From assembly GCA_031291845.1 (NCBI GenBank), contig JARLIH010000239.1, forward strand, positions 62,001-126,000: DNA of 64,000 nt, given 5' to 3'. Source of the DNA: Isosphaeraceae bacterium. Its GTDB lineage: Bacteria > Planctomycetota > Planctomycetia > Isosphaerales > Isosphaeraceae. Below, in pieces: positions 17,644-31,324 of the stretch (its first letter is position 1; the number at the start of each line of letters is the position of its first letter). The notes below the pieces were generated by a model. It was not told where the DNA came from and did not search any database. It saw only the letters and a program-made list of their open reading frames with translations. Position numbers and translations under genes: made by a program.

Positions 17644-19269
17644 ATGTTAGCCCCTCGCATCATGGCGACCTGGGACCGCACCCGGCGGGCGCGAACGCCG
17701 CGTTACGCGGCTGCGCGCTCGCTTGGCTGTTGCGTCGAGGTGCTCGAGGAGCGGTTCCTGCTCACGCAGTCCGCCGATCTTGTGTGGCACTCGGTGCCGG
17801 TCGGCACCGTGCCGGCGCAGGTGGACCTAAACGCCTTGTCCGACGCGACATCCGACGCCGCGACGAGCGCGAGCGACCCCACCACCGTGAGCGACATCGA
17901 GGTCGCGTCCGGCACGGGTGCGGCCTTACCGATCGGGCCTTCCACGGAATCCATCACGGAAACGACGTCCCTCCACTCCACCCTGCGGACGGCGCAAGCC
18001 CTTCCTGACGATATGGACACGGCCGTGTCGGGGACGCTGGGCGCGGCCGGCGCGGCGGGTATCTTTCGGATCCCGTTGGACTCGGCCACGTTGTCGCGCC
18101 TGCAACTGAGCCTGTCCTGGACCAATCCCGACATCTCGGGGGCGGCGAGCATCAGGATCCTGGACAGTTCGGCGCACGTTCTCTTGGACGAGGCCTTGTC
18201 GGCCGAACCTCTGGGTATCGGCGTTTATTTCGGCCACATCAGCCAGGCACCGGGCGCCTCGCTCTACGTCGAGATCCTTCCCGCGACTGGCTCCGCCCAG
18301 AGCGCCGCGCCAACGCCCGGCTATGTCTTGAGAGTGCAGCCCATGAATCCGCCGACCCCGACGGGTCCTCCGGGCCCGCCGTCCGGACCACAGCCGGGGT
18401 CCGCAACGGAAACGGATGGACCGACGACCGGTAACAGTTCGACGTACACCGCGGCCGCCTCCACCGCGACGTCCCCCTCCACCGCGACGTCCCCCTCGCC
18501 GGTGAACACGCCTCCGGTTATGACGTGGGGAAGGTCGCCGGCGAACCTGCCGACCGCCGTTTTGCCGCTGCCCCGTCTGGCGGCGGCCCCGGTCGGAGGG
18601 ATCTTCGCCAGCGCTACCGTTGCCGCACTCAGCTCGAACGCGCGGGCAACCCCCACGGTTCCGCCGCGCAACCTCTTCGAGAGCTCCACCGTCGCCGCGC
18701 CCAGCTCGAACGCGACAGCCGTGGTGGCAGACCCGAACTTCCTGGAGATCACGCCGGAGGCTTCCGGGCAGCCCCTCGCCACGACGGGTTCCACATCGAC
18801 GATTACCACCCGAGCGGGGAAACCCGACATGCCGTCCGTGCGCCCGCTGGCACCTTGGGGAAGGACTGGGGAATGGACTGCCGGGGTCGGCGGCGGGCTT
18901 CCAGAGAACGCGACCCCGCCCGTTCCTGGCGATGGCGCGCCGCGCCTGATCTTTACGCTCCCGCCCGTTGATATCCTGGCGACCACTCCGGCCGTGCCGG
19001 AATCGGCGCGTGCGGGCTGGCCTGGCGACGACGCCACTCTCCCCCGCATTCTCGACGAGCCCTGCGTCGCGGACCCGACGACACGCGTAAACGCCCCCGT
19101 CGAAACGACCGCGACCGGCTCCGCCACCCGTCGGCGTCCCCGTACGGTGCTCGCACTCCTGTACGGCTCGGTCTGCGGCTTCCTTGGCCTCACGGCGCCC
19201 GAATTCAGAGCGGCCCTTCGACGCGTCTCGCGGAGCGAACTGGAGCCGGACGGCGAGGGGACCGAGTGA
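17644..19269 (+). CDS. LEPR-XLL-type surface protein, paralog A
   Basis: 541 residues. The N-terminus is basic (TRRARTPRYAAARS) and then carries VEVLEERFLL at 31-40, the LEPR-XLL motif found at the start of many large planctomycete exported proteins. A beta-rich domain with HSTLRTAQALPDD and GTLGAAGAAGIFRIP follows, then a Thr/Ser/Pro-rich region with an exact 18-bp DNA tandem repeat (18461-18496, TATSPS twice), and C-terminal RRRPRTVLALLYGSVCGFLG. All these blocks recur in the next gene. Probably cell-surface; function unknown. The start is ATG 17644; ATG 17662 is an alternative. Confidence 0.8.
   Translation: MLAPRIMATWDRTRRARTPRYAAARSLGCCVEVLEERFLLTQSADLVWHSVPVGTVPAQVDLNALSDATSDAATSASDPTTVSDIEVASGTGAALPIGPSTESITETTSLHSTLRTAQALPDDMDTAVSGTLGAAGAAGIFRIPLDSATLSRLQLSLSWTNPDISGAASIRILDSSAHVLLDEALSAEPLGIGVYFGHISQAPGASLYVEILPATGSAQSAAPTPGYVLRVQPMNPPTPTGPPGPPSGPQPGSATETDGPTTGNSSTYTAAASTATSPSTATSPSPVNTPPVMTWGRSPANLPTAVLPLPRLAAAPVGGIFASATVAALSSNARATPTVPPRNLFESSTVAAPSSNATAVVADPNFLEITPEASGQPLATTGSTSTITTRAGKPDMPSVRPLAPWGRTGEWTAGVGGGLPENATPPVPGDGAPRLIFTLPPVDILATTPAVPESARAGWPGDDATLPRILDEPCVADPTTRVNAPVETTATGSATRRRPRTVLALLYGSVCGFLGLTAPEFRAALRRVSRSELEPDGEGTE
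18461..18496 (+). repeat. 18-bp exact tandem repeat inside paralog A
   Basis: CCACCGCGACGTCCCCCT occurs twice head to tail, encoding S-T-A-T-S-P twice in the low-complexity linker. A slippage-prone unit in frame (18 = 6 codons). Confidence 0.8.
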
Positions 19270-19455
19270 CCGGGATTGGATGGACCTTGCCCATGCCGGA
19301 GAAAATGCGCCGGGCGTGGTCGGGAAAAAGGGGGAGAATCCGACTACCCTTAACGAAGTCCAGGCTGAAAGACGCCTGCGAATTGGGGTCGGCCGCGCCA
19401 TAAGTCGAGGGATCGAGCGAAGAAACGGCAACCCAACGTAGGGATACACCCCAGG

Positions 19456-20859
19456 ATGACGAAGCGACCCGTGGCTGCTCCCATCCGCCGACGCGGACGT
19501 CGGCGGGACCGCTCGGCGGCCCGGGCTTTCGCATGCCGCCTGGAAGTACTCGAGGACCGGTTCCTGCTCGCACAGTCCTCGTTCAGTGCGCCGGCACCCA
19601 ATGCCGGCAATCCATCCGGGCTAAGCGCAATCGAAGTATTTGTTGGAAAACGCGTTAAGACGTTGGCCGATGCGGACGCGACGCTCACGCCCGACACGAC
19701 GGCCGACCACTCCACACTGTCGACGGCGGAGGACCTGCCAGCGGACGCGAGCCTGCTGGGCACGTTGAACGCGTCGGGGGCGCCGGGGGTGTTTCGATTG
19801 CCGGTCAGTCCCGGCGAGCGTTCGATGGTCATTGCCTTCTCCTGGGTCCAGCCGTCCAGCCGAATTGCGGGCAGCGTCGTCCTCGTGAGTGGTTCGACCG
19901 ACGTCGTGTGGTCCCACGAGCTGCCGGGAAAGCCGCTCGCGATCGATCTCCAGTTCTCGAACCTCGGGGCCGATCCGGGCACGCCGCTGTACCTCGAGAT
20001 CGTGCCGGCCGAAAACCACGCCGCACCACCCATCGCAGGCTCATCCGAGTACGCGCTGCACGTGCTGCAGTTTCCGGATCCGCAAGGTTGGAGTCAGGGC
20101 TCCGGATTCGCCGGATTCCAGCCCGTGCAATCCCTCGGGTCCGGTCCCTGCCCCAATCGCCAGGCGCCGTTACCGGCTTCGGGGCGGCTGCCCGAAACCG
20201 GCACGGGCATAGTCCTCCCCTTGCCCCAGGTGCCTCCATCGCCAGTCGCAGGAATTTTTACGCTCGGTGATTCGAGCGTGCCGGTCGCCAGCATCGTTTC
20301 CGTCGTGGCCGATCCGGACTTGCTCGACCTCGTGCCGGTTGCCACGGGGTTGACCTGGAGCGCCGCGCGGTTGACGTTGGCCAGCGCAGGCGACGGCGAC
20401 GCAAGCGACCCGTGTTGCGTCGGGCTCCCGCGCGACGAGGCAACACCGCTCGCTTCTCAAGAGCCCGGCGCATGGGCCGTCGACCAGGTGTTCGGCTCGG
20501 CGAAGGACGAGACGCCCTCGAACCTCGCCTTGTCGTCTCCCCCCGTGGGCATCCGGGCATTCGAGAAATCGATCGCCGCGGACCGGTTCGGCGACCGCGC
20601 CACACTTCCCCGGCTGGTCGTCGAGCCCGCGATCGTCGAGTGTGGGCGATCGAAGGTCACGTCGACGAGCCAAACCGCGGCTCACCGGCCGACAGCGAAC
20701 CTGCGCCCGCGCGCGCTGCTCGCACTCGTCTACAGCTCCGTCTGTTCGATCCTTGGGCTTACGGCCCCCGGCCTCAGCGCAACGCTTCACCAGGCCGCAC
20801 GCGGCGAGTCAAACGGCTGTAAGCGAGAACCGATACCTCAAACCGGCGCCGTCGTATAG
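19456..20859 (+). CDS. LEPR-XLL-type surface protein, paralog B
   Basis: 467 residues, same plan as the preceding gene: basic leader (RRRGRRRDRSAARAF), LEVLEDRFLL at 29-38, the HSTLSTAEDLPAD / GTLNASGAPGVFRLP domain, a shared SIVSVVADPDLLDLVPVATG block (matching VVADPNFLEITPEASG in paralog A), ATLPRLVVEP near 380, and LRPRALLALVYSSVCSILGL at about 416-435. It lacks the Thr/Ser tandem repeat. Start ATG 19456. It runs 22 bases into the convergent DUF1501 gene. Function unknown; surface location inferred from the N-terminal motif. Confidence 0.8.
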   Translation: MTKRPVAAPIRRRGRRRDRSAARAFACRLEVLEDRFLLAQSSFSAPAPNAGNPSGLSAIEVFVGKRVKTLADADATLTPDTTADHSTLSTAEDLPADASLLGTLNASGAPGVFRLPVSPGERSMVIAFSWVQPSSRIAGSVVLVSGSTDVVWSHELPGKPLAIDLQFSNLGADPGTPLYLEIVPAENHAAPPIAGSSEYALHVLQFPDPQGWSQGSGFAGFQPVQSLGSGPCPNRQAPLPASGRLPETGTGIVLPLPQVPPSPVAGIFTLGDSSVPVASIVSVVADPDLLDLVPVATGLTWSAARLTLASAGDGDASDPCCVGLPRDEATPLASQEPGAWAVDQVFGSAKDETPSNLALSSPPVGIRAFEKSIAADRFGDRATLPRLVVEPAIVECGRSKVTSTSQTAAHRPTANLRPRALLALVYSSVCSILGLTAPGLSATLHQAARGESNGCKREPIPQTGAVV

Positions 20860-22217
20860 AGTGGCGTCATCACCTCACCCGAGCACAGCCGCAAGGGACG
20901 TCGGAGGCGGTCGCGCAGCTCGGTCGCCGGGTCAACCCCGAGCGCGTGGTACACCGTCGCCGCGAGGTCGGGCGGCCCGAACGTCTTGGAAATCGGGTAG
21001 GCCCCCAGCCGGTCGGACTTGCCGATCACCTGGCCACCCACCACGCCGCCCCCGGCAAACACCGCGGGGAACACCGCGGGCCAGTGGTCGCGGCCGGGAA
21101 CGTCCCCCTTGTTCAGCTCGAAGATCCGAGGCGTGCGTCCGAACTCGCCAAGCATGACGACGAGCGTTTCGTCCAGGAGCCCACGCGTCTTCAGGTCGTC
21201 CAGCAGGGAGGACACCGCCTGGTCCAGCGGCGGGAGCAGATCATTCCGCAGCCGCGGGAAGTTACCGACGTGCGTGTCCCACGTTTGCACGATGCCCATC
21301 GTCGCCTGCACCACCGGAACACCCGCCTCCACGAGCCGCCGCGCGAGCAGGAGCGACCGGCCGAAGATGTGCTTGCCGTAGCGGTCGACCAGGCGCGGGT
21401 CTTCGCGCTCGGTGTCGAGCGCCTGGCCCACCTTGCCGCTGCAAAGCATCGCCAGCGCAGAGTCCTGATGGTCGACGAACGCATCCCCCGCACTCGGCAC
21501 GGCGACCTGGCCGAGGAGGTGCCGGCGGCGGTGCAGGCGTTCCGGGTCGAGCCCGGCGGGTAAAGCGAGGCTGTCGTCGCGCGTCTCGGGGCGGTTCGGG
21601 TCGAGGCGGAGCTGCCACGGGTCGTGCCGCGAACCGAGGAAGCCCGCATCCTGACCCGGCCACGTGAGCGGGCCCTCCACCAGCCGAAGCGGCAGCGCAA
21701 CGCCGTTAGGGATGCCGTCGCCCCGGCGCCTCACCTGGTCGAGTACGGCCGCGTAGCACGGGAAATCGTCGCGCGACGCCACCCGGTCCAGGTCGCTCGC
21801 CCCGCGCGGGCTGGACGCCTGGCCCGTCAGTACCCGGTGGACCGCCAGCAGGTGGTTCCCCTCGGTGTGGGACATCGACCGCACGATCGCCAACTCATCG
21901 GCCCGCGCGGCCAGCCGCGGCAGGTGCTCGCAAATGTGAAGGCCGGGGACTGCCGTGGCGATGGGCTTGAATTCGCCCCGGAGCGCATCCGGAGCCTCGG
22001 GCTTCATGTCGAACGAGTCATGCTGTCCCAGCCCGCCGCTCAACAGGATCACGATCACCGACCGCGCCCGCCCCGTCGCCTGCCCACCGGCCGCCGCCGC
22101 ACGCCCCGCAAGCAAGCCCGGCAGTCCGAGCCCGAGCAGGCCGGAGTAACCCACCTGGAGGAACCCACGGCGAGTCAGCCCCACTCCATCCGCACGAATC
22201 GGGTCGATCTGACGCAT
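20838..22217 (-). CDS. DUF1501 protein, Tat-exported
   Basis: 459 residues. A twin-arginine signal (LTRRGFLQVGYSGLLGLGLPG) opens the protein, and VIVILLSGGLGQHDSFDMKP is the DUF1501 start, from the alkaline-phosphatase superfamily. Further marks are RSMSHTEGNHLLAVHRVLTG, GEFGRTPRI and GRDHWPAVFPAVFAGGG. In planctomycetes these genes usually pair with a DUF1549/DUF1553 (PSD1) cytochrome gene; that partner is missing here. Start ATG 22217 gives a normal distance to the twin arginines. It shares its last 22 bases with the convergent surface-protein gene and follows the ceramidase-like gene on the same strand. Confidence 0.92.
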   Translation of the reverse strand: MRQIDPIRADGVGLTRRGFLQVGYSGLLGLGLPGLLAGRAAAAGGQATGRARSVIVILLSGGLGQHDSFDMKPEAPDALRGEFKPIATAVPGLHICEHLPRLAARADELAIVRSMSHTEGNHLLAVHRVLTGQASSPRGASDLDRVASRDDFPCYAAVLDQVRRRGDGIPNGVALPLRLVEGPLTWPGQDAGFLGSRHDPWQLRLDPNRPETRDDSLALPAGLDPERLHRRRHLLGQVAVPSAGDAFVDHQDSALAMLCSGKVGQALDTEREDPRLVDRYGKHIFGRSLLLARRLVEAGVPVVQATMGIVQTWDTHVGNFPRLRNDLLPPLDQAVSSLLDDLKTRGLLDETLVVMLGEFGRTPRIFELNKGDVPGRDHWPAVFPAVFAGGGVVGGQVIGKSDRLGAYPISKTFGPPDLAATVYHALGVDPATELRDRLRRPLRLCSGEVMTPLYTTAPV

Positions 22218-22444
22218 TTCCGAGCCTCTCGAGCCCGCACTCAGCTTATGACGGGCATTTGCCCTGCATGCCACACCCAAAGTTTAACATTTGCTGGCGG
22301 AGATTCCAAGTCCGAGAGCGAATCCTCCCGCGCAAGCGTTGCTGGAATTGGCGGAGCTTCGGGAAATCCGGGTGGCGAGTACCGTCTCCTCCGGGCAACC
22401 CACGGGCCCGCCCCGCGCTCGATCGAGATTCCCGTCCGGGCCCA

Positions 22445-23869
22445 TCATTGCCGCACCTGATTCACAAGCTTTTGCACCGTTGCCGCGATCCGGTCCTCCA
22501 CGTCTTCACCCCAGCGCAGGGCCGGTCGGCCGTATTCGAACAGGTTCGACCCACCCTCATAGCCCCCTTCCTCCCAGACGCGCCGGGACGGGATGTAGGC
22601 GATCATGTCGTCCGTATAGCCGCAGACCCACGTCCCCGCGCCGAACTCCTTCTTGAACCGAAGCGCATAATCCACGACCGACTCTGCCCCCAGCCCGATC
22701 ACGAGCATCTCCCCACCGAGCCGCCACGCGTGGACCGGGTAGGGGTATGACGGCCGAAACGCCTCGCCGGCATCCAGCTTCCGCAGCATCCGTGCGGCCC
22801 AACGAGCGCGAATGGGATTGCCGTCCCGTAGAAACGCAGTCAGTTCCTCGCGCGTGACAACCTTCAAGTACGGCAGTTCCACCAGCTCGAATGCCGTTTT
22901 CAGGGCCGGTGTGACCGTCTTCAGCGGCTGTTTCAGCACGTCTTCCACCGCCGTCGCCAGCATGTGCCCATAGCGGCGGCACAGATCGACGCTTCGCCGC
23001 GGCAAGGGGTTCTGGTCGCCCCCACACGTGTTCACGAACATGGCCGATGCCCCCGGATGGGCCTGCTCCAACTCCCGTTGGGCGAAGCCCGGGTAGTCAC
23101 CGCACCAGGTCGTGAAGTTGAGCGTGGTCGGGTGACAGGCGTAACCGAAGAGGACGGCCGCAAGTGCGCCTCCCGGCCGGGTGACGGTCAAGACCGGCAC
23201 GGAGTGGTCCACCGGCCCCGCCAACGGCGTGCCCTTCGCCAGCAGGGCCGGGACATCGGCCTCGCGGTTGTTGCGCCGGTTCACCGCGAACGTGGCGGTG
23301 CCCGCGCCCAGCCGCAGCTCCGCCGGCGCGAGGTTCGCAAGTGACTCGCCGACCAGGGCGGCTACCTTCTCGACCATCAGCGCCGTGTATTCCTCGACCA
23401 GCTTCACCTGCTCGGCCTCGACCGGGTAGTAATCCACCAGGTCGTCCCCCAGGCGAGGACCGCAGTGATTGTGTGAGAATGTGAACATGATCTGATGTCT
23501 TTGCAGGCCATAGCGCTTTTGCACCCGTTCGAAGACCGGGTCGCTCATCGAGCGGGGGACGCCCTGGAAGTCGCTGGTGATCAGGACCGCGCGATGTCCT
23601 CTCTCGTCCTCGAGTGCCAGGGCTTTGACCCACAGGTCGTGCAGCTTGCCGTCCGGTGGGCGTTTCGTCCCGTAGCCGGCGAGCCACACGGCGGTCTCCG
23701 GCGTGACGACCGCCTTCGCCACCCCCGCTTTCCAGCTTGGAGCCGTCTCGGCGGCAAACCCGGCGCGGTGACCGGTGTCGGGAATGACGAACGTGGAGAC
23801 GACCACCACCAGAGCGACGATGCCAAACAGGCGGGGAAGTCGACAAGAAGGCGCGGCGTGACGAACCAT
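22445..23869 (-). CDS. Neutral/alkaline non-lysosomal ceramidase-like protein
   Basis: 474 residues with a Sec signal peptide (hydrophobic core GIVALVVVVSTFVI). Family marks: KAGVAKAVVTPETAVWLAGYG, FTFSHNHCGP with the zinc-ligand histidines, and FGYACHPTTL. True neutral ceramidases hydrolyse the ceramide amide bond and have a serine in a G-x-x-S-P-N loop; here that loop reads CGGDQNPLP, without the serine, so ceramidase activity is doubtful. Planctomycetes have many such homologs of unknown substrate. The oxidoreductase gene lies 44 nt upstream on the same strand, so the two are probably one operon. Confidence 0.85.
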   Translation of the reverse strand: MVRHAAPSCRLPRLFGIVALVVVVSTFVIPDTGHRAGFAAETAPSWKAGVAKAVVTPETAVWLAGYGTKRPPDGKLHDLWVKALALEDERGHRAVLITSDFQGVPRSMSDPVFERVQKRYGLQRHQIMFTFSHNHCGPRLGDDLVDYYPVEAEQVKLVEEYTALMVEKVAALVGESLANLAPAELRLGAGTATFAVNRRNNREADVPALLAKGTPLAGPVDHSVPVLTVTRPGGALAAVLFGYACHPTTLNFTTWCGDYPGFAQRELEQAHPGASAMFVNTCGGDQNPLPRRSVDLCRRYGHMLATAVEDVLKQPLKTVTPALKTAFELVELPYLKVVTREELTAFLRDGNPIRARWAARMLRKLDAGEAFRPSYPYPVHAWRLGGEMLVIGLGAESVVDYALRFKKEFGAGTWVCGYTDDMIAYIPSRRVWEEGGYEGGSNLFEYGRPALRWGEDVEDRIAATVQKLVNQVRQ

Positions 23870-23913
23870 GGACGGGAGGCTCCAAGCGGCGATCGAGTGG
23901 GTGTTCCGTTGAA

Positions 23914-25005
23914 TCAGCGGTCGCAGGGGAGTTCGCTGGCTTCGAGCAGGGCGCGCTGGACCGCCAGGTCGTGCTCGTACGAGAAATCGGCCGCCTTCTC
24001 GCCGCGGATCACGCGGGCCATGTCGGCGGCATCGTCCACGTAGCGGGTGTACTTCGGAAACGTGATCTGTTGGTATCCCGGTTGATAGGCCCCGCGCGCG
24101 GTCGTCAGCGCCAGCTTCGCGGCCGGGTCGTCGAGCGGCTGGATGTGGAACGTCCCTTCGGTACCGCAGACGACCAGGTGCCGCCGCTGGAAACCGTCGA
24201 CCTCCAGCGCGCTCGCCTTCACCGTGGCCAGTGCTTTCGGGTACTCGAATACCGCCAGCATATTGTCCTGGAGCCCGTCGTCGACGCGCGCGGCGTGCCG
24301 CGCGAACGGTGCGACCTTGGCCGGCTTCCCGAGCACGCCGACCACCAGGTCGATCACGTGGCAGCCCAGCTCGAACATGATGCCGCCGCGGTATTCCGCC
24401 AGCCCGCGCCGGGCGGCTGGCTCGACGACCTTGCTCATCACCGCGTGCACCTCGAACACCTCTCCCAGCCAGCCGCGTTTCAGCAAGTCGCGGAGCAGTA
24501 CGACGGCCGGGTTATAACGGAACATGTAACCCATCTGCACGAGCAGCTTCCGCCGCGCGGCTTCGTCGAGGATCCGGCGGAACTGCGGCAGCGACTCGCC
24601 CGCGGGTTTGTCGACGTGGACGTGCTTGCCAGCCTTGACGCACGCCTCGGCCGTATCGAGCAAGTCGCGCACGCGTGTTTCGACGAGCACCGCCTGGAGG
24701 CCGGGCTCGTTCAGCAGTTGCTCCTGCGTCAGCCAGTGCACCCCTCGGTACGTATCCTGCGCTTCGGCTCGTGCGCGCAGCTCCGGGTCCGGTTCCACGA
24801 CACCGACGACCTCGTAGTCGGCCGACCGCCGGAACACGGCGAGCTTGCTCGCGTGCGCGTGTCCGACCCCGATCTGCCCGACCTTAATCCGTGGCCGGGA
24901 TGGCGAAGGGTCGTCCGCCCTGACGCCGGCGAGACCCGGCGACAGTGAGAGAGCAAGGGCCCCGCCGCATCGTCTCATGAGGGCACGTCGGCTTTGATCG
25001 TTCAT
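23914..25005 (-). CDS. Gfo/Idh/MocA family oxidoreductase, probably Tat-exported
   Basis: 363 residues. The N-terminus QSRRALMRRCGGALALSLSPG resembles a Tat signal, ending near GVRADDP. The NAD(P)-binding domain has KVGQIGVGHAHASKL, and HVDKPAGES replaces the usual EKP loop by DKP. The C-terminal domain includes FELGCHVIDLVVGVLG with the catalytic-site histidine. Such enzymes oxidise or reduce sugars and their derivatives; exported forms with tightly bound cofactor are common in planctomycetes. First gene of a two-gene run with the ceramidase-like protein. Confidence 0.88.
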   Translation of the reverse strand: MNDQSRRALMRRCGGALALSLSPGLAGVRADDPSPSRPRIKVGQIGVGHAHASKLAVFRRSADYEVVGVVEPDPELRARAEAQDTYRGVHWLTQEQLLNEPGLQAVLVETRVRDLLDTAEACVKAGKHVHVDKPAGESLPQFRRILDEAARRKLLVQMGYMFRYNPAVVLLRDLLKRGWLGEVFEVHAVMSKVVEPAARRGLAEYRGGIMFELGCHVIDLVVGVLGKPAKVAPFARHAARVDDGLQDNMLAVFEYPKALATVKASALEVDGFQRRHLVVCGTEGTFHIQPLDDPAAKLALTTARGAYQPGYQQITFPKYTRYVDDAADMARVIRGEKAADFSYEHDLAVQRALLEASELPCDR

Positions 25006-25444
25006 CGCGCTGCTCCCTGGGGTTGCCGGTCGGGACCCGACTCGCTCCGTGAGCGCACGGGCTCTCGGCTCGTCGAGGCTCCCGGACGCTGGAAACGGAA
25101 CCGGGGTTTCCGAGTGTATGACGCGTCCGTGGCACGGGCAAGCGCGGGTATGGCTTAGCCGGCGTCGCCACGAACGCTAAGCCCACGACGGGACGCAATC
25201 GGTCTCACTCCAGCCGCACCCACGCGACGGAAACATCGAGATCGCCGCAAGCTCGACCCAAATTGCCCAGACCAGGGGCCGCGCCGGCGTGCACGCGTCG
25301 TGTCGGCTAATCCAAAATCTTCGCGAACCCGATTCGGCTATCGAATTTCCGGCGATCTGGTAACCTCGGGCGATAGTTCTCCGCCGCCCACCGTCGGCGC
25401 GTCGAGTCGGTACGCCGAGGCGCGGAGCGCAAGGACGCTCGACG
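25006..25444. other. Divergent intergenic region upstream of hpnH
   Basis: 439 bases between the oxidoreductase start (minus) and hpnH (plus). I see no gene, repeat or strong promoter consensus. AAGGA at 25430-25434 lies 9 nt before the hpnH ATG. Confidence 0.5.
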
Positions 25445-26455
25445 ATGCGTTACCCCTTGGGATTCACGTTAGCGCAGGCCAGGCACCGGGCAAAGATGGC
25501 GAGGGCAGGGCAGGAGCGGTATCCCTCCGTCCTGATGCTGGAACCCCTCTACACGTGCAACCTCGCCTGCCTCGGCTGCTCGACCGAGCGGTATTCGGGC
25601 AAATTGTCCGACCGGATGCCCGTCGAGCAATGCCTCAAGGCGGTCGACGACTGCGGCGCACCAATCGTCAATATCTGCGGGGGTGAGCCGACGCTGTATC
25701 CCGAGCTCCCCGAGCTCGTCGAGGGGCTCATCGCGCGGAAAAAGCACATCCTGCTCTGCACGAACGCGCTGGTGCTCGACAAGAAGCTCTTCGGGAAGAT
25801 CGCGCCCAGTCCGCGCCTGTTGCTGATGATCCACCTCGACGGCTTGCGGGAAACGCACGACCACGTCTGCAAGCGCGAGGGCGTTTTCGATAAGGCCATC
25901 GCGATGATTCGGGAGGGGAAGGACCGGGGTTACCACATCTACCTCAACACCACCGTCTACAAGGAGACGAAGGTGGATGAGGTCGAGGGGCTGTGCCAGC
26001 TCGTCGAGGAGCTTCGCGCCGACGGCATCCTGATCTCGCCCGGGTACGAGTACGAGAGCGTGCGCAGGGAGCGCGACATCTTTCTCGACCGCGAGGGGAT
26101 TCACGAAAAGTTCCGCGCCATCCGCGACTTCTCGCGCCGATACCGGGTCAACGCCACGCCGACCTTCCTGGAGTTCGCCGCGGGCTTGCGCGAGCTCCCC
26201 TGTTCCCCCTGGTCAACGGTCAATTACACGCCCAAAGGCTGGAAGGCCCCCTGCTACCTGATCGAAGGGGAGGGCTACTACCAGGATTGGAGCGACTTCT
26301 GGTCGAAGACCGATTGGGCCTACTGGGAGTCACGCGACGACGGCCGGTGCAAGAACTGCAAGATGCACAGCGGCTTCGAGCACAGCGCCGTGAATGAGGC
26401 GATGAAGTCGGTCGGCGGCCAGCTCCGGCTCGCCGCATGGACCATCGGCGTCTGA
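25445..26455 (+). CDS. hpnH: Adenosyl-hopene transferase HpnH, radical SAM
   Basis: 336 residues; joins a 5'-deoxyadenosyl radical to diploptene to give adenosylhopane, the first step of hopanoid side-chain extension. The iron-sulfur motif C-x3-C-x2-C is at C38, C42, C45 (YTCNLACLGC); ICGGEPTLYPELPELV binds SAM. LCTNALVL, ISPGYEYE and the C-terminal CKNCKMHSGFEHSAVN cysteines also match HpnH. The protein begins near the family's RYPLVLMLEPLF motif, so the ATG at 25445 is sound. Other hopanoid genes (squalene-hopene cyclase, hpnG, hpnI) are not in the window. Confidence 0.92.
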   Translation: MRYPLGFTLAQARHRAKMARAGQERYPSVLMLEPLYTCNLACLGCSTERYSGKLSDRMPVEQCLKAVDDCGAPIVNICGGEPTLYPELPELVEGLIARKKHILLCTNALVLDKKLFGKIAPSPRLLLMIHLDGLRETHDHVCKREGVFDKAIAMIREGKDRGYHIYLNTTVYKETKVDEVEGLCQLVEELRADGILISPGYEYESVRRERDIFLDREGIHEKFRAIRDFSRRYRVNATPTFLEFAAGLRELPCSPWSTVNYTPKGWKAPCYLIEGEGYYQDWSDFWSKTDWAYWESRDDGRCKNCKMHSGFEHSAVNEAMKSVGGQLRLAAWTIGV

Positions 26456-26788: not shown

Positions 26789-29700
26789 TCAGCGCAACGG
26801 CGTGGTCCAACCCTGCCGCAGCCACAACGCCGCAGTCCGACGGGCCAGCGAGACCACGCGTGGCAAGCGGCTCGGCCGGGCGGGCAGGGTGGCCGCGTAG
26901 GTCAGGGTGACGCCCGCGAGTGTCGCGGGATCACCGGAGCCGAGCTCGATCGCGTCTTCCAGGTCGGCGAGGGTCTGGTCCCACTGGCCGAGATGCAGGA
27001 AGGCGCGGGCCCGGCCGAGGAACGCGGCGGCGTCTTCGGGGTCGTCGCTCAGCACGAGATTCCACTCGTCCCGGGCTTCGGCGAACCTCCCCAGTTTGTG
27101 CCAGGCGCGGGCCTTCGCGGCGTGGGCCGGGCCGCCGGCGCCGCCGGTGATCGCGAGCTCGAGATCGGCGAGCCCCTCGGCCGGGCGACCGGTGTCGACT
27201 CGGAGACTGCCGCGCAGAGCCACGAGGCGCGAGTCGCGCGGGTCAAGGGTTGTCCCTTGCTCCGCATCCGTCTGGGCCGCTGCGAGATCGCCGGCACGCC
27301 GCCGCACCTGGGCGCGGGTGAGAAGGGCTTGCACTGAGTCGGGGCGCAGCGCGACGGCACGGTCAGCGTCCGCCAGGGCCTCGCCGTGCGCGCCGAGTGC
27401 GCTGAGGACGACGGCACGGGTCAGGAGCGCCGGCAAGGGGGTCTCGCCACCGCTGCGCGACCTGAGCCGGTTGGCCGCAGCGCGCAGATCCCGGCGCAGG
27501 GCGGGACCGGCGACGGGCAGACGATCCATGTCGTCGGGTTGTAGTTGGCCCAGGTCGGTGTCACGGCGCAGGGCCAGGGCGACGCGCGTCCAGAGCCGCA
27601 AGCGCGCGGGGGTGGCACCCTGCTGGAGCAGCTCAGCGGCGTCGGCCTGGGCTCGTGCGGGGTCGCCGAGCAGTAGTCGGGCCTGCGCGCGGGCGTTGAG
27701 CAGCTCCGCCGGCCGCACGTCTCGCCCCCGGAATCCGTCGAGCAACCGCGTGAGCTCGGCCTCTCCTTCCGCCACCCGGCCGACCCGTAGGGCGAGCAAG
27801 GCCCGGCCCAGCGCTGCGCTCGTCATCGTGGGGTCGTCGCGCAGCACCGCGTCGTAATCGGCGCGCGCCGATTCCACGGCGCCTAGACCGGCCAGTGCCC
27901 TGGCGCGGGAGAGACGGGCGATCCGCGCCGATTTCGGGTCATCGGCCGACGCGACGACGGCGCTGAGTTCCGCGAGCGCTGTCGGGAAGTCGCCCAGCTC
28001 GAGCGCGATCTGGCCCGCTTCGAGGCGGATTGCGAGCGGATCGAGTCCGTCGGGGTGCCGGCGGGCCTGCGCCAGGTCGTCGAGCGCCCGGCCCCAGGCC
28101 CGCTTCCTGGACGCGTACAGCAGCGCCCGGTTGAAATGGGCCCAGGCGGAATCGGGTCGCAACGCGATCGCTTCGCTGTAGTGCGCCAGGGCGCGGTCCG
28201 CCTCGCCGTAGCGTTCACAGTAGAACGCCAGCGCGAACTGGTGCCAGAAATCATTGGGCCGGAGCGACACCGCCCGTTCCAGCCAGGCCAGACCGCGTGC
28301 GCGGGGACCGTCCAGCAGGGCGACCAAGCCGCGCTGGAAGTCGCCCCTCGCCCGGGCGTCGGGCTCCGGGTCTTCGTCAGAACGGTCGACGCCCGGCGGC
28401 CCCGCCTCGGGCTCATATCGCGTCCGGAGCCTGCGCCAGGGCCCTTTCGGCTCGGCGAACAGCAGGGCGCGGTCGCACAGCGCAAGCGCCGACGCACGGC
28501 CCTCCGCATCGTGCGGGTCCGAGGCCCACACCCAGAGGAACAGGAGCTCGTTGACCTCGTCCAGCAGGCGGGCACGCCGCGGCGGGTCGAGTCGCTCGAA
28601 GTCCGGGAGGCGGTTCCAGTCGCTCCGGCTGAGAACGTGGAAGGGCTCGAGCGTGCGCTGGAGCTCGGGTCCGATGGACTTCAACTCCTTGCCCGTGATC
28701 AGCCGGAAGCGAAGCGGCTCGATCAGCCGGAAGAGGCCGTCGGCCCGAGCGCGCGCGTTTTGTGTCTCGTCGACGTCGCGCTGCCGGGCTTCAGCTTCCG
28801 TGTGCAGCGAGCGCAGGGCGCTATACCCCTTGGCGAGCGCAGCCGCTCGGGCATATTCGGTCGAGCCGTCGGCGAGCTGGCCAACGTGCTCGGCGCTCCG
28901 GCCCGCGGCCAGGGCTTGCCGCACGTCCCCTTCGCGACGGAACCCCCGGGCCTGAACGCGGAATGCCGTGGCCATCGCGGCAGCCGAGAGGGCCAACAGC
29001 GCGACGACGACGGTAATGCGCAGCCGGTTGCGCGCGCCCCAGCGCAGCGTGCGCGCGGGCTCGGGCTCGCGCGCAAAGCGGAGAGGGCCGTCGTCGGCCA
29101 CGGCATGCAGGTCGACCGCCAGTTGGGCGGCGGTTTGATAGCGGTCGGGTGGGTCGGCGGCCAGGCACTTGCGGATCACGGCCTCGAGCGCGGCGGGGAC
29201 GTTCCGGTCACGCAGCCGCTCCCAGGGGGGACCCGCACGGCGCTGGTCGATCAAGGTGCGGAGGGCCTCGCCGGGCCGGCCCTCGACCGCGGTGGGGAAC
29301 GGACGCGAGGCCAGGACCTCGAACAGGACCACCCCCAGGCCGTAGACATCGGCGCGCGCGTCGACCACGCCCGTCGCCTGTTCGGCGACGGCGCGGAGGT
29401 GCTCGGGGGCCATGTAGGCCAGAGTCCCCCCCAGAACCAGGGGAGCCACGTCGGGACCCCCTGCGGGCGCGGCGTGAGACAGGTTGAAGTCGAGGAGCAT
29501 CGGGACGGCGTCGGCCGTCACGAGCACGTTCGACGGCTTGACATCGCTATGCAGGATCCCTTGTTCGTGCGCGTGGTGGAGGGCTTCCGCCAGCCGGGCC
29601 CCCCACCACGCGACGGCCTGGCCCAAGGAGCGCCGGGCCAGCGCTGCGCGCCCCTCGGCGCGCGGCGACGGGACTTCCGAAGCGGGCCGCAGCGCGTCGA

Positions 29701-30475
29701 ACACGGCGAGCAGCTCCGCTCCCGATCGGGCCGACGCGCACCGCTCGTCGGCCAGGATCGCGGCCAGCGTCACCCGGCCGAAGTAGGGCATGCACAGCAG
29801 GTGCAGCCCCGTGGACGGGTCGGTCCGATACGAGTAGACGGGCACGATGTGGGTGTGCTGGAGCCGGGCGAGCGTCTGGGGCTCGGCCGAACCGCGCCGG
29901 GCGACCTTGAGGGCGACCGGGCGGTCGGCCAGCCCTTGTTCCTCGGCCAGGTAGACGCGAGCGAATGCGCCTCGCCCCAGCTCTTCGACGAGCCGGAACC
30001 CGTCGATCGTCTGGCCGGTCTCCGGGAACGGAGCGCTGGGAACGGCGGCGGCCAGCGACCAGCTCTCGGTCGAGCCGACCCACTCGTGGATCTCGAGGAT
30101 CTCGCCAAGCTGGGGGGCAAGCCCCGGGAAGCGCACTTCGTACTCGGCCGGACGGGGCGACTCGCCGGCTTCCTCGCGAAGGCAAAACTCTTCATACAAG
30201 AGGGCGACGAGCACTTCGTCTTCGAGCTGGGCATAGCGCTCGGCGTACCACTCGACGCGCACCGGCTCTCCCGCCCCCCTGCGCAGCGCGAGGTCGGCGC
30301 GCAAGAGGGCGAGGATCGCGCCCGGCCCGCGCCCGGGCTCGTTCGGCAAGTAATGCCGGGGGTCGGGCGGATCGTGCGGGCGCGACCGCCAGTCGGCCTC
30401 GAAGGCCCGCGCCAACCGGGAGGCGGCGGGTGACGACGCCTCATCCCAGATCCGGCCCCGACTGGTCATGGCCAT
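26789..30475 (-). CDS. Membrane Ser/Thr protein kinase with C-terminal TPR repeats
   Basis: 1228 residues. An N-terminal region of about 155 residues precedes the kinase domain (glycine loop ELGRGAFARVYLAEE, lysine in VALKV). The catalytic loop reads ILHSDVKPSNVLV, so HRD has become HSD near residue 311, and the DFG motif is DFN in LLDFNLSHAAP near 329; proton-acceptor Asp, Lys and Asn are kept. A transmembrane helix (ITVVVALLALSAAAMATA) is at about 485-507, and the rest is TPR-rich (from about 690). The gene overlaps the ECF sigma-factor gene by 35 bases, so the two are one operon: a typical planctomycete sigma/kinase pair in which phosphorylation may control the sigma factor. Confidence 0.9.
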   Translation of the reverse strand: MAMTSRGRIWDEASSPAASRLARAFEADWRSRPHDPPDPRHYLPNEPGRGPGAILALLRADLALRRGAGEPVRVEWYAERYAQLEDEVLVALLYEEFCLREEAGESPRPAEYEVRFPGLAPQLGEILEIHEWVGSTESWSLAAAVPSAPFPETGQTIDGFRLVEELGRGAFARVYLAEEQGLADRPVALKVARRGSAEPQTLARLQHTHIVPVYSYRTDPSTGLHLLCMPYFGRVTLAAILADERCASARSGAELLAVFDALRPASEVPSPRAEGRAALARRSLGQAVAWWGARLAEALHHAHEQGILHSDVKPSNVLVTADAVPMLLDFNLSHAAPAGGPDVAPLVLGGTLAYMAPEHLRAVAEQATGVVDARADVYGLGVVLFEVLASRPFPTAVEGRPGEALRTLIDQRRAGPPWERLRDRNVPAALEAVIRKCLAADPPDRYQTAAQLAVDLHAVADDGPLRFAREPEPARTLRWGARNRLRITVVVALLALSAAAMATAFRVQARGFRREGDVRQALAAGRSAEHVGQLADGSTEYARAAALAKGYSALRSLHTEAEARQRDVDETQNARARADGLFRLIEPLRFRLITGKELKSIGPELQRTLEPFHVLSRSDWNRLPDFERLDPPRRARLLDEVNELLFLWVWASDPHDAEGRASALALCDRALLFAEPKGPWRRLRTRYEPEAGPPGVDRSDEDPEPDARARGDFQRGLVALLDGPRARGLAWLERAVSLRPNDFWHQFALAFYCERYGEADRALAHYSEAIALRPDSAWAHFNRALLYASRKRAWGRALDDLAQARRHPDGLDPLAIRLEAGQIALELGDFPTALAELSAVVASADDPKSARIARLSRARALAGLGAVESARADYDAVLRDDPTMTSAALGRALLALRVGRVAEGEAELTRLLDGFRGRDVRPAELLNARAQARLLLGDPARAQADAAELLQQGATPARLRLWTRVALALRRDTDLGQLQPDDMDRLPVAGPALRRDLRAAANRLRSRSGGETPLPALLTRAVVLSALGAHGEALADADRAVALRPDSVQALLTRAQVRRRAGDLAAAQTDAEQGTTLDPRDSRLVALRGSLRVDTGRPAEGLADLELAITGGAGGPAHAAKARAWHKLGRFAEARDEWNLVLSDDPEDAAAFLGRARAFLHLGQWDQTLADLEDAIELGSGDPATLAGVTLTYAATLPARPSRLPRVVSLARRTAALWLRQGWTTPLR

Positions 30476-31076
30476 CCCTCACGCCCTCCTCGTTGCTCTG
30501 CGTCCGTCGGCGCAGGTCTTCGAGCACCCGCCGCACGGTTCGCTCGCTGATGCCGAGCCGTCCCGCGATCTCGTGGTTCGTGAACCCTTCCGCCTTCAGG
30601 TCCAGGACAATCCGCCGCCCCTCGGGGACCAGGTCGCGCAGGCGCCCCAGCGTCTCGCGCGCTTCGGCCATCTCGCTCGGCGTGTCGGCGCCGTCGCTCA
30701 GTTCCCGGGCGTGGCTGCCGTCCCAGAGCGACTCCTCGAGCCGGACGTCCCGCCCCTGGCTCGACGCCCGGCGGTACTCATCGATGACCTTGTTCCGCGC
30801 CGCTCGTGCCAGGAACGCCACGAGGTTCCGCGGGTCCTCGAACTCCGAAGGACCGGCCCCCATCCTGCGGAAAAAGCTCCCCCAGACACTTTGCAGGAAG
30901 TCAAGCGAATCGAACCGCGCCCGCAACAGCTTCGGCAACTGCCGGCGCACCACGAGACGCACCTGCGCCTCGTACCGGCACAGGAGCTCGCGCGCGGCCT
31001 CCTCGTCCCCCGCCCGGATCCGCGCGAGAAACGCCTGTAGCTCCCCGCGTTCCTGGGACGGGCCCCCGCTCGACAT
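30441..31076 (-). CDS. ECF-type RNA polymerase sigma factor
   Basis: 211 residues. Region 2: FDSLDFLQSVWGSFFRRM followed by AFLARAARNKVIDEYRR, which binds core and the -10 element. Region 4: EGFTNHEIAGRLGISERTVR, a helix-turn-helix that binds the -35 element. No anti-sigma gene is adjacent; instead the kinase starts inside the last codons of this gene. Planctomycete ECF groups linked to Ser/Thr kinases have this arrangement. The start is ATG 31076; a longer frame to 31154 exists but its extra residues are not sigma-like. Confidence 0.9.
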   Translation of the reverse strand: MSSGGPSQERGELQAFLARIRAGDEEAARELLCRYEAQVRLVVRRQLPKLLRARFDSLDFLQSVWGSFFRRMGAGPSEFEDPRNLVAFLARAARNKVIDEYRRASSQGRDVRLEESLWDGSHARELSDGADTPSEMAEARETLGRLRDLVPEGRRIVLDLKAEGFTNHEIAGRLGISERTVRRVLEDLRRRTQSNEEGVRDGHDQSGPDLG

Positions 31077-31324
31077 AGGATAGAAACCTCCGTGGCTGGC
31101 TTGGGCCGTTACTAGGAATGACGGAATTCCGTGATCGTCGCGGACAGGGGGCACGATCGTCCAGCCCTTTGCGTCGCTCCCTCGGGGAACGCAAGGCTCT
31201 CGGAACCTTCACCGGCCGTTCATCGCTTCCACGTGCCGTATCGTGATAGTGCGCACCCAAACCGTTCTCGCGCGCGCCGATGTTGACTGCATCCCAACGT
31301 CTCCCGTGACCTGGAGCCAGCCTC

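Follow-up and report, generated by a model that had tools for sequence, protein, structure and literature searches.

Linkage of a family of LEPR-XLL-type, putatively membrane-anchored PPC-like proteins to a TPR kinase and an ECF sigma factor in the Isosphaeraceae

Introduction

For PknS of Xanthomonas citri, the kinase domain is placed inside the cell and the TPRs in the periplasm, with the kinase directly phosphorylating EcfK and its periplasmic part modulating its autophosphorylation, while the periplasmic input is left to future work (PMC13147305). The TPR domains of planctomycete kinases are predicted to be periplasmic (PMC11032199), and several planctomycete ECF groups are predicted from microsynteny to be kinase-regulated, with ECF59, 61, 62 and 217 listed as planctomycete STK-linked groups (PMC8999054). 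A published consensus, RRLxxExLExRxLLA, is believed to be a novel signal for the export of cell-surface proteins in planctomycetes; a related motif occurs in 52 genes of T. immobilis, and 8/20 detected proteins of this type were found only in the SDS fraction (PMC8567305).

A tandem gene pair is described here from a 64,000-nucleotide stretch of DNA (the window) of a member of the Isosphaeraceae. On balance, we favour the reading that its two products are exported, membrane-anchored partners, probably co-receptors, of the kinase and ECF sigma factor encoded approximately 6 kb away.

The tandem gene pair and its family

Table 1. Features of the tandem gene pair and the linked signalling genes in the window
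Feature	Coordinates	Strand	Description
ORF A	17644..19269	+	541 aa; LEPR-XLL-type box, PPC-like domain, Pro/Ser/Thr-rich linker, C-terminal TM helix, tail
LEPR-XLL-type box of ORF A	17737..17763	+	EVLEERFLL; direct reading
PPC-like beta-sandwich of ORF A	17974..18336	+	About residues 111-231; AF2 pLDDT about 66
C-terminal block of ORF A	19135..19233	+	RPR - predicted TM helix (19144-19200, TVLALLYGSVCGFLGLTAP) - EFRAALRR; KD 1.58; two C-terminal profiles
ORF B	19456..20859	+	467 aa; tandem paralogue of ORF A with identical architecture
LEPR-XLL-type box of ORF B	19543..19569	+	EVLEDRFLL; direct reading
PPC-like beta-sandwich of ORF B	19708..20064	+	About residues 85-203; AF2 pLDDT 55-72
C-terminal block of ORF B	20704..20802	+	RPR - predicted TM helix (20713-20769, ALLALVYSSVCSILGLTAP) - GLSATLHQAAR; KD 1.76; C-terminal profile
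Ser/Thr protein kinase	26789..30475	-	1228 aa; cytoplasmic kinase - single TM - TPR array; Pfam PF00069 and TPRs
ECF sigma factor	30441..31154	-	PF07638 E 7e-19; overlaps kinase start

The products of ORF A and ORF B (Table 1) align over nearly their full length (BLASTP: 31% identity; 141 bits; E 4e-41), which bears out a preliminary description of the locus as a pair of tandem paralogs, and all of the shared blocks listed there were found in both proteins in the order given. Direct family searches of NCBIfam, Pfam and PHROGs returned no matches to either ORF. The family was defined stepwise, using profiles of two, three, eleven and finally 24 sequences; the two-sequence profile detected one relative, in the congeneric genome G009, and the three-sequence profile reached further genera, while a profile scan of genome contigs returned the congener alone. 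With the full-length profile, members were identified in 33 of the 45 genomes of the Isosphaeraceae, the taxonomic family of the window, while the 253 other genomes of the class yielded a single match, to the middle (PPC) domain alone. The family architecture comprises a LEPR-XLL-type box, a PPC-like beta domain, a Pro/Ser-rich linker and a C-terminal helix. Antisense or spurious ORFs matched by the profiles (e.g. G037:C1:8978751) were dismissed after reading. In genome G031 (L173, L236), the kinase-adjoining member is split by an apparent frameshift, with its C-terminal half in another frame. As far as our literature search reached, we found neither the family nor its association with kinase and sigma factor genes described.

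The N-terminal box

The LEPR-XLL box noted in the preliminary description is present in both ORFs, but its spelling departs from LEPR, and neither protein matches the NCBIfam LEPR-XLL model (NF012209) above its cut-off. The boxes are recognisable as LEPR-XLL-type through relatives such as L019 (LEPRLLM), which passes this model (20 vs 17 bits). In ORF A the box follows an N-terminus that is rich in Arg but has no classical Sec hydrophobic core, and in every family member read with an intact N-terminus the box lies close to that end, after an Arg-rich stretch. This succession of an Arg-rich N-terminus and a LExLExRxLL box is what the family shares with the LEPR-XLL and PF07595 surface proteins (PMC8567305). 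There is no Pfam match to Planc_extracel (PF07595) in the window proteins, and the best relative reaches only E 0.33. Family members differ from LEPR-XLL and PF07595 proteins in being short, at about 430-650 aa from the box, and in having a predicted C-terminal TM anchor, which is missing from nine other complete LEPR-XLL proteins of the same genome.

The C-terminal block

As judged from its sequence, the C-terminal block is a transmembrane helix with a short tail that is basic in most cases. Alignment of 23 C-termini shows the hydrophobic helix ending in GLxxPDL, followed by basic residues, and a looser form, in which the helix is followed by PDL ([AL]PDL or (L/Y)PDL) and a basic tail, is kept in most of the family. 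The pattern Y-x-SVC-x-x-LGLTAP proposed for the pair is genus-bound in its exact spelling and family-wide only in the looser form, the window variants at the PDL site being LGLTAPEF (ORF A) and LGLTAPGL (ORF B). In the C-termini of L006, L007 and L014, PDL is replaced by LSQPxxGFD, and two of these fall below KD 1.4; helices with KD >= 1.4 are found in 30/32 members. The tail, with a median of 29 aa, is mostly basic and poorly conserved, and in 28/32 members its basic character exceeds that of the outer flank. The window pair is among the exceptions, with outer flank and tail charges of +4 and -2 in ORF A and of +4 and +1 in ORF B. In the AF2 model of ORF B, helices at residues 418-432 and 440-450 fall in a low-confidence region.

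A narrow C-terminal profile gave strong scores only for the pair and one congener, its weaker matches, several of which were read, being taken as chance. A 37-position profile returned 35 matches at E <= 2.3e-4 in the 45 genomes, all 35 of them family members; 23 had been used to build the profile and 12 were independent, two of the latter being fragments or frameshifted. Outside the family, in other genomes of the class, the matches, judged by score, were weak, the best reaching E 6.8e-4. The co-occurrence of block and LEPR-XLL box anticipated in the preliminary description holds throughout the 35 matches, and the block was neither found in unrelated cytoplasmic proteins nor limited to the pair. 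It was also rightly regarded as undescribed, having no counterpart in Pfam or NCBIfam.

The proposal that the block is a separate sorting or anchoring signal fared less evenly. The hydrophobic helix and tail are consistent with an anchor, while a processed sorting signal is not supported. As a general second signal of LEPR-XLL proteins the block was rejected, since there is no such helix (best KD 1.21) in nine other LEPR-XLL proteins whose 3' end is intact, all from the window's genome; it is therefore a marker of the family rather than a general partner of the LEPR-XLL signal and, as far as can be read from sequence, a family-specific predicted membrane anchor. PEP-CTERM-type signals resemble it in having a hydrophobic helix close to the C-terminus and, in most cases, basic residues after it. 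Membership of that class was rejected, in agreement with the preliminary description, since no PEP-type or other conserved motif precedes the helix in the 23 C-termini. Sortase, exosortase and rhombosortase signals likewise carry their motif before the helix, whereas in the family the conserved PDL is at the opposite end of the helix, next to the tail.

The PPC-like domain and linker

AF2 models of moderate confidence contain a beta-sandwich in both proteins. For ORF A, the top Foldseek matches include Tk-SP and the ColG/ColH collagen-binding/PPC domains, while the ORF B model matches 1nqj (TMt 0.68-0.78) and 5sv5 (TMt 0.72); a PPC/CBD beta-sandwich fold is supported by matches to 1nqj (TMt up to 0.79), 3jqw and 5sv5 (0.65-0.72). 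Furthermore, in a planctomycete protein with no other relation to the family (L079), the family profile overlaps the region that Pfam assigns to PF04151. The likeness to PPC (PF04151) and collagen-binding domains thus consists of the predicted fold and this profile overlap. The family differs from PPC domains in that no direct Pfam match to PF04151 was obtained in the window proteins or their relatives, and in that the domain is here not attached to a peptidase; comparison of the PPC segment with PDB sequences returned nothing useful. The Pro/Ser-rich linker of the family contains a PLPxxxAxPxGG block and a GGxPL block.

A protein from another planctomycete family (L086 of G291, reverse strand) combines a LEVLENRFTPA box with a metzincin-type HExxHxxGxxHS motif. 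Its PPC region is matched by the family profile and it ends in a hydrophobic helix with a basic tail, giving it an overall layout similar to that of the family, on a peptidase.

Linkage to a kinase and an ECF sigma factor

Comparison of neighbourhoods revealed two recurring genes, encoding a kinase-TPR protein and an ECF sigma factor. An orthologue search identified the window kinase as an orthologue of the kinases adjoining family members in other genomes, and profile matches were obtained to the ECF sigma factor found beside the kinase in relatives; the window thus holds a PF07638-type sigma factor beside a Hanks kinase with TM helix and TPRs. The TM helix of the kinase (KD 2.29) directly follows the kinase domain and has an Arg-rich inner flank, which would place the TPR array outside. 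In the aligned sigma factors, DSLD or DSVD/DSID stands in the position of DAED in region 2.2. The window protein has DSLD, which makes phospho-activation as in ECF43 uncertain.

In 26 genomes, a total of 31 of the 38 family loci have the orthologous kinase no more than 7.2 kb away, and for most of them the gap is < 300 bp. The sigma factor accompanies the kinase nearly always; none was seen at three linked loci, two of which have a kinase cut by the contig end, while that of the third (G032) is a more distant relative. Twenty-four of the linked loci are convergent, four divergent and three codirectional, and the linkage has therefore outlived rearrangement. Among the seven other loci, those of G010 and G023 are clearly unlinked to the kinase, while the remaining five (G003, G016, G017, G018, G024) are on short or partly examined contigs. 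As a control, 14 other LEPR-XLL loci of the window's genome were inspected: the kinase/sigma orthologue group was not nearby, and only weakly matching kinases and sigma factors were observed. This nearly constant adjacency suggests that the pair supplies a piece missing from a signalling system.

In the window, the pair and the kinase are four genes apart (20838-26455); from reading the sequence, rather than from domain searches, the four appear DUF1501-like, ceramidase-like, oxidoreductase and radical-SAM-like. These are absent from the equivalent position in the congener G009, where the gap is 27 bp. In G032 (L226:1566-7872), the family member and the more distantly related kinase share a strand, the member lying directly upstream, and the surroundings yielded no sigma factor. 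At L257:3164-7317 (G000:C157), a different ECF sigma factor and a WD40-array kinase adjoin a LEPR-XLL gene (L105) whose product has no C-terminal TM; the location of LEPR-XLL genes beside ECF/kinase pairs may be more general.

Matched histories of the LEPR-XLL-type protein and the kinase

Tree distance matrices of the LEPR-XLL-type proteins and kinases are strongly correlated across 27 pairs (Mantel r 0.91; 0/2000 permutations as high), an agreement partly expected from the physical linkage of the genes alone. Up to three co-duplicated pairs occur per genome, the three being found in G013, and the paralogous pairs of G001, G002, G013 and G019 co-segregate into matching clades. Retention of the linkage through rearrangement and duplication is a stronger argument than tree agreement. 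In member-bearing genomes the kinase TPR region covers 436-478 of 478 model positions, with one cut by a contig end, while the closest ECF-linked kinases of the member-less genomes G004, G006, G007 and G008 cover 0-123 of these positions. The g18 genomes (G033-G035) encode full-length but divergent kinases and no member.

Proposed mechanism and alternative explanations

The layout of PknS, the predicted periplasmic location of planctomycete TPRs and the existence of kinase-regulated ECF groups together lead us to infer that the LEPR-XLL-type protein is an anchored outer partner of the kinase. Its N-terminus would direct export by a planctomycete route. Judging from hydropathy and charge, the C-terminal helix would stop in the cytoplasmic membrane, leaving the tail inside and exposing the PPC-like domain with its linker on the outside. 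In the kinase, the catalytic domain would lie inside and the TPR array outside, as indicated by its TM helix and flanking charge and in line with published predictions. The linkage, matched trees and co-occurrence suggest that the PPC-like protein may contact the TPR array and, in the role of co-receptor or ligand-binding partner, gate the kinase; the kinase, by analogy with PknS-EcfK and PknT-EcfP, may phosphorylate the ECF sigma factor and so switch on its regulon. We tentatively propose, as a possibility rather short of an even chance, that this is a three-part planctomycete system in which a LEPR-XLL-exported, C-terminally anchored PPC protein is the dedicated co-receptor on the TPR array of a Hanks kinase that phosphorylates an ECF sigma factor. 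Counted against a partner role are the weak charge rule in the window, the members located away from the kinase in G010 and G023, the g18 kinases without a member, the LSQPxxGFD C-termini and DSLD in the sigma factor.

The main rival treats the family as an output of the system instead of its sensor, the protein belonging to the surface or envelope and its gene being controlled by the linked ECF sigma factor. Signalling genes often adjoin their targets, a cell-surface location is presumed for LEPR-XLL proteins (PMC8567305), and the mostly convergent orientation means that the LEPR gene is not in the kinase operon. We nevertheless consider this rather unlikely, though with a real chance of being correct, as the association with the TPR array of the kinase fits a partner better and, in a limited test with simple patterns, no promoter common to the LEPR and sigma factor genes was seen. 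Instead, a conserved, housekeeping-like TCGACA-N16-18-TAnAAT element lies upstream, near the LEPR start codon, in four congeneric genomes (L188, L186, L187, L173), preceded in 3/4 of them by a GTCGCCGGAnGTCGCC-like repeat. Another possibility, an anchored surface protein that is lineage-specific and tied to the kinase by inherited gene order only, would account for the restriction to one taxonomic family and for the part of the tree agreement that follows from linkage. This appears improbable, since the linkage has persisted in three orientations, despite genes inserted in between and through duplication of the pair, and since most kinases of genomes without a member have no TPR array.

Two further explanations concern the C-terminus itself. 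Its helix and basic tail resemble the tripartite layout of PEP-CTERM-type signals, and the block could accordingly be cleaved by a sortase-like enzyme. With the upstream motif missing, PDL on the tail side, the nine other complete LEPR-XLL proteins devoid of the block and only one or few proteins carrying it per genome, such processing is very improbable. It is scarcely plausible that the cytoplasmic tail is an anti-sigma element holding the ECF factor directly: the sigma factor gene adjoins that of the family and no separate anti-sigma gene was noticed, but a tail of 29 aa is short for a known anti-sigma domain, and its basic, poorly conserved character also speaks against such a role. An anchored partner of the kinase remains our preferred reading.

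Comparison with known systems

If the co-receptor reading is true, the family would give this type of TPR receptor kinase an identified input and, to our knowledge, provide the first assigned role for any LEPR-XLL protein. By tying the input of TPR kinases to LEPR-XLL function, the family offers a concrete test of both.

This kind of signalling system is already known, and the added anchored partner is new as far as our search reached. PknS-EcfK of Xanthomonas citri and PknT-EcfP of Vibrio parahaemolyticus, both ECF43 systems, share with the window an ECF sigma factor beside a Hanks-type kinase, and PknS has the same order as the window kinase, namely kinase, TM and periplasmic TPR (PMC13147305). 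The window sigma factor, unlike ECF43, appears to keep a DAED-like motif, DSLD. An exported, anchored partner is not reported for PknS-EcfK or PknT-EcfP in the text consulted (PMC13147305), whereas the system described here would include one, specific to a single planctomycete family.
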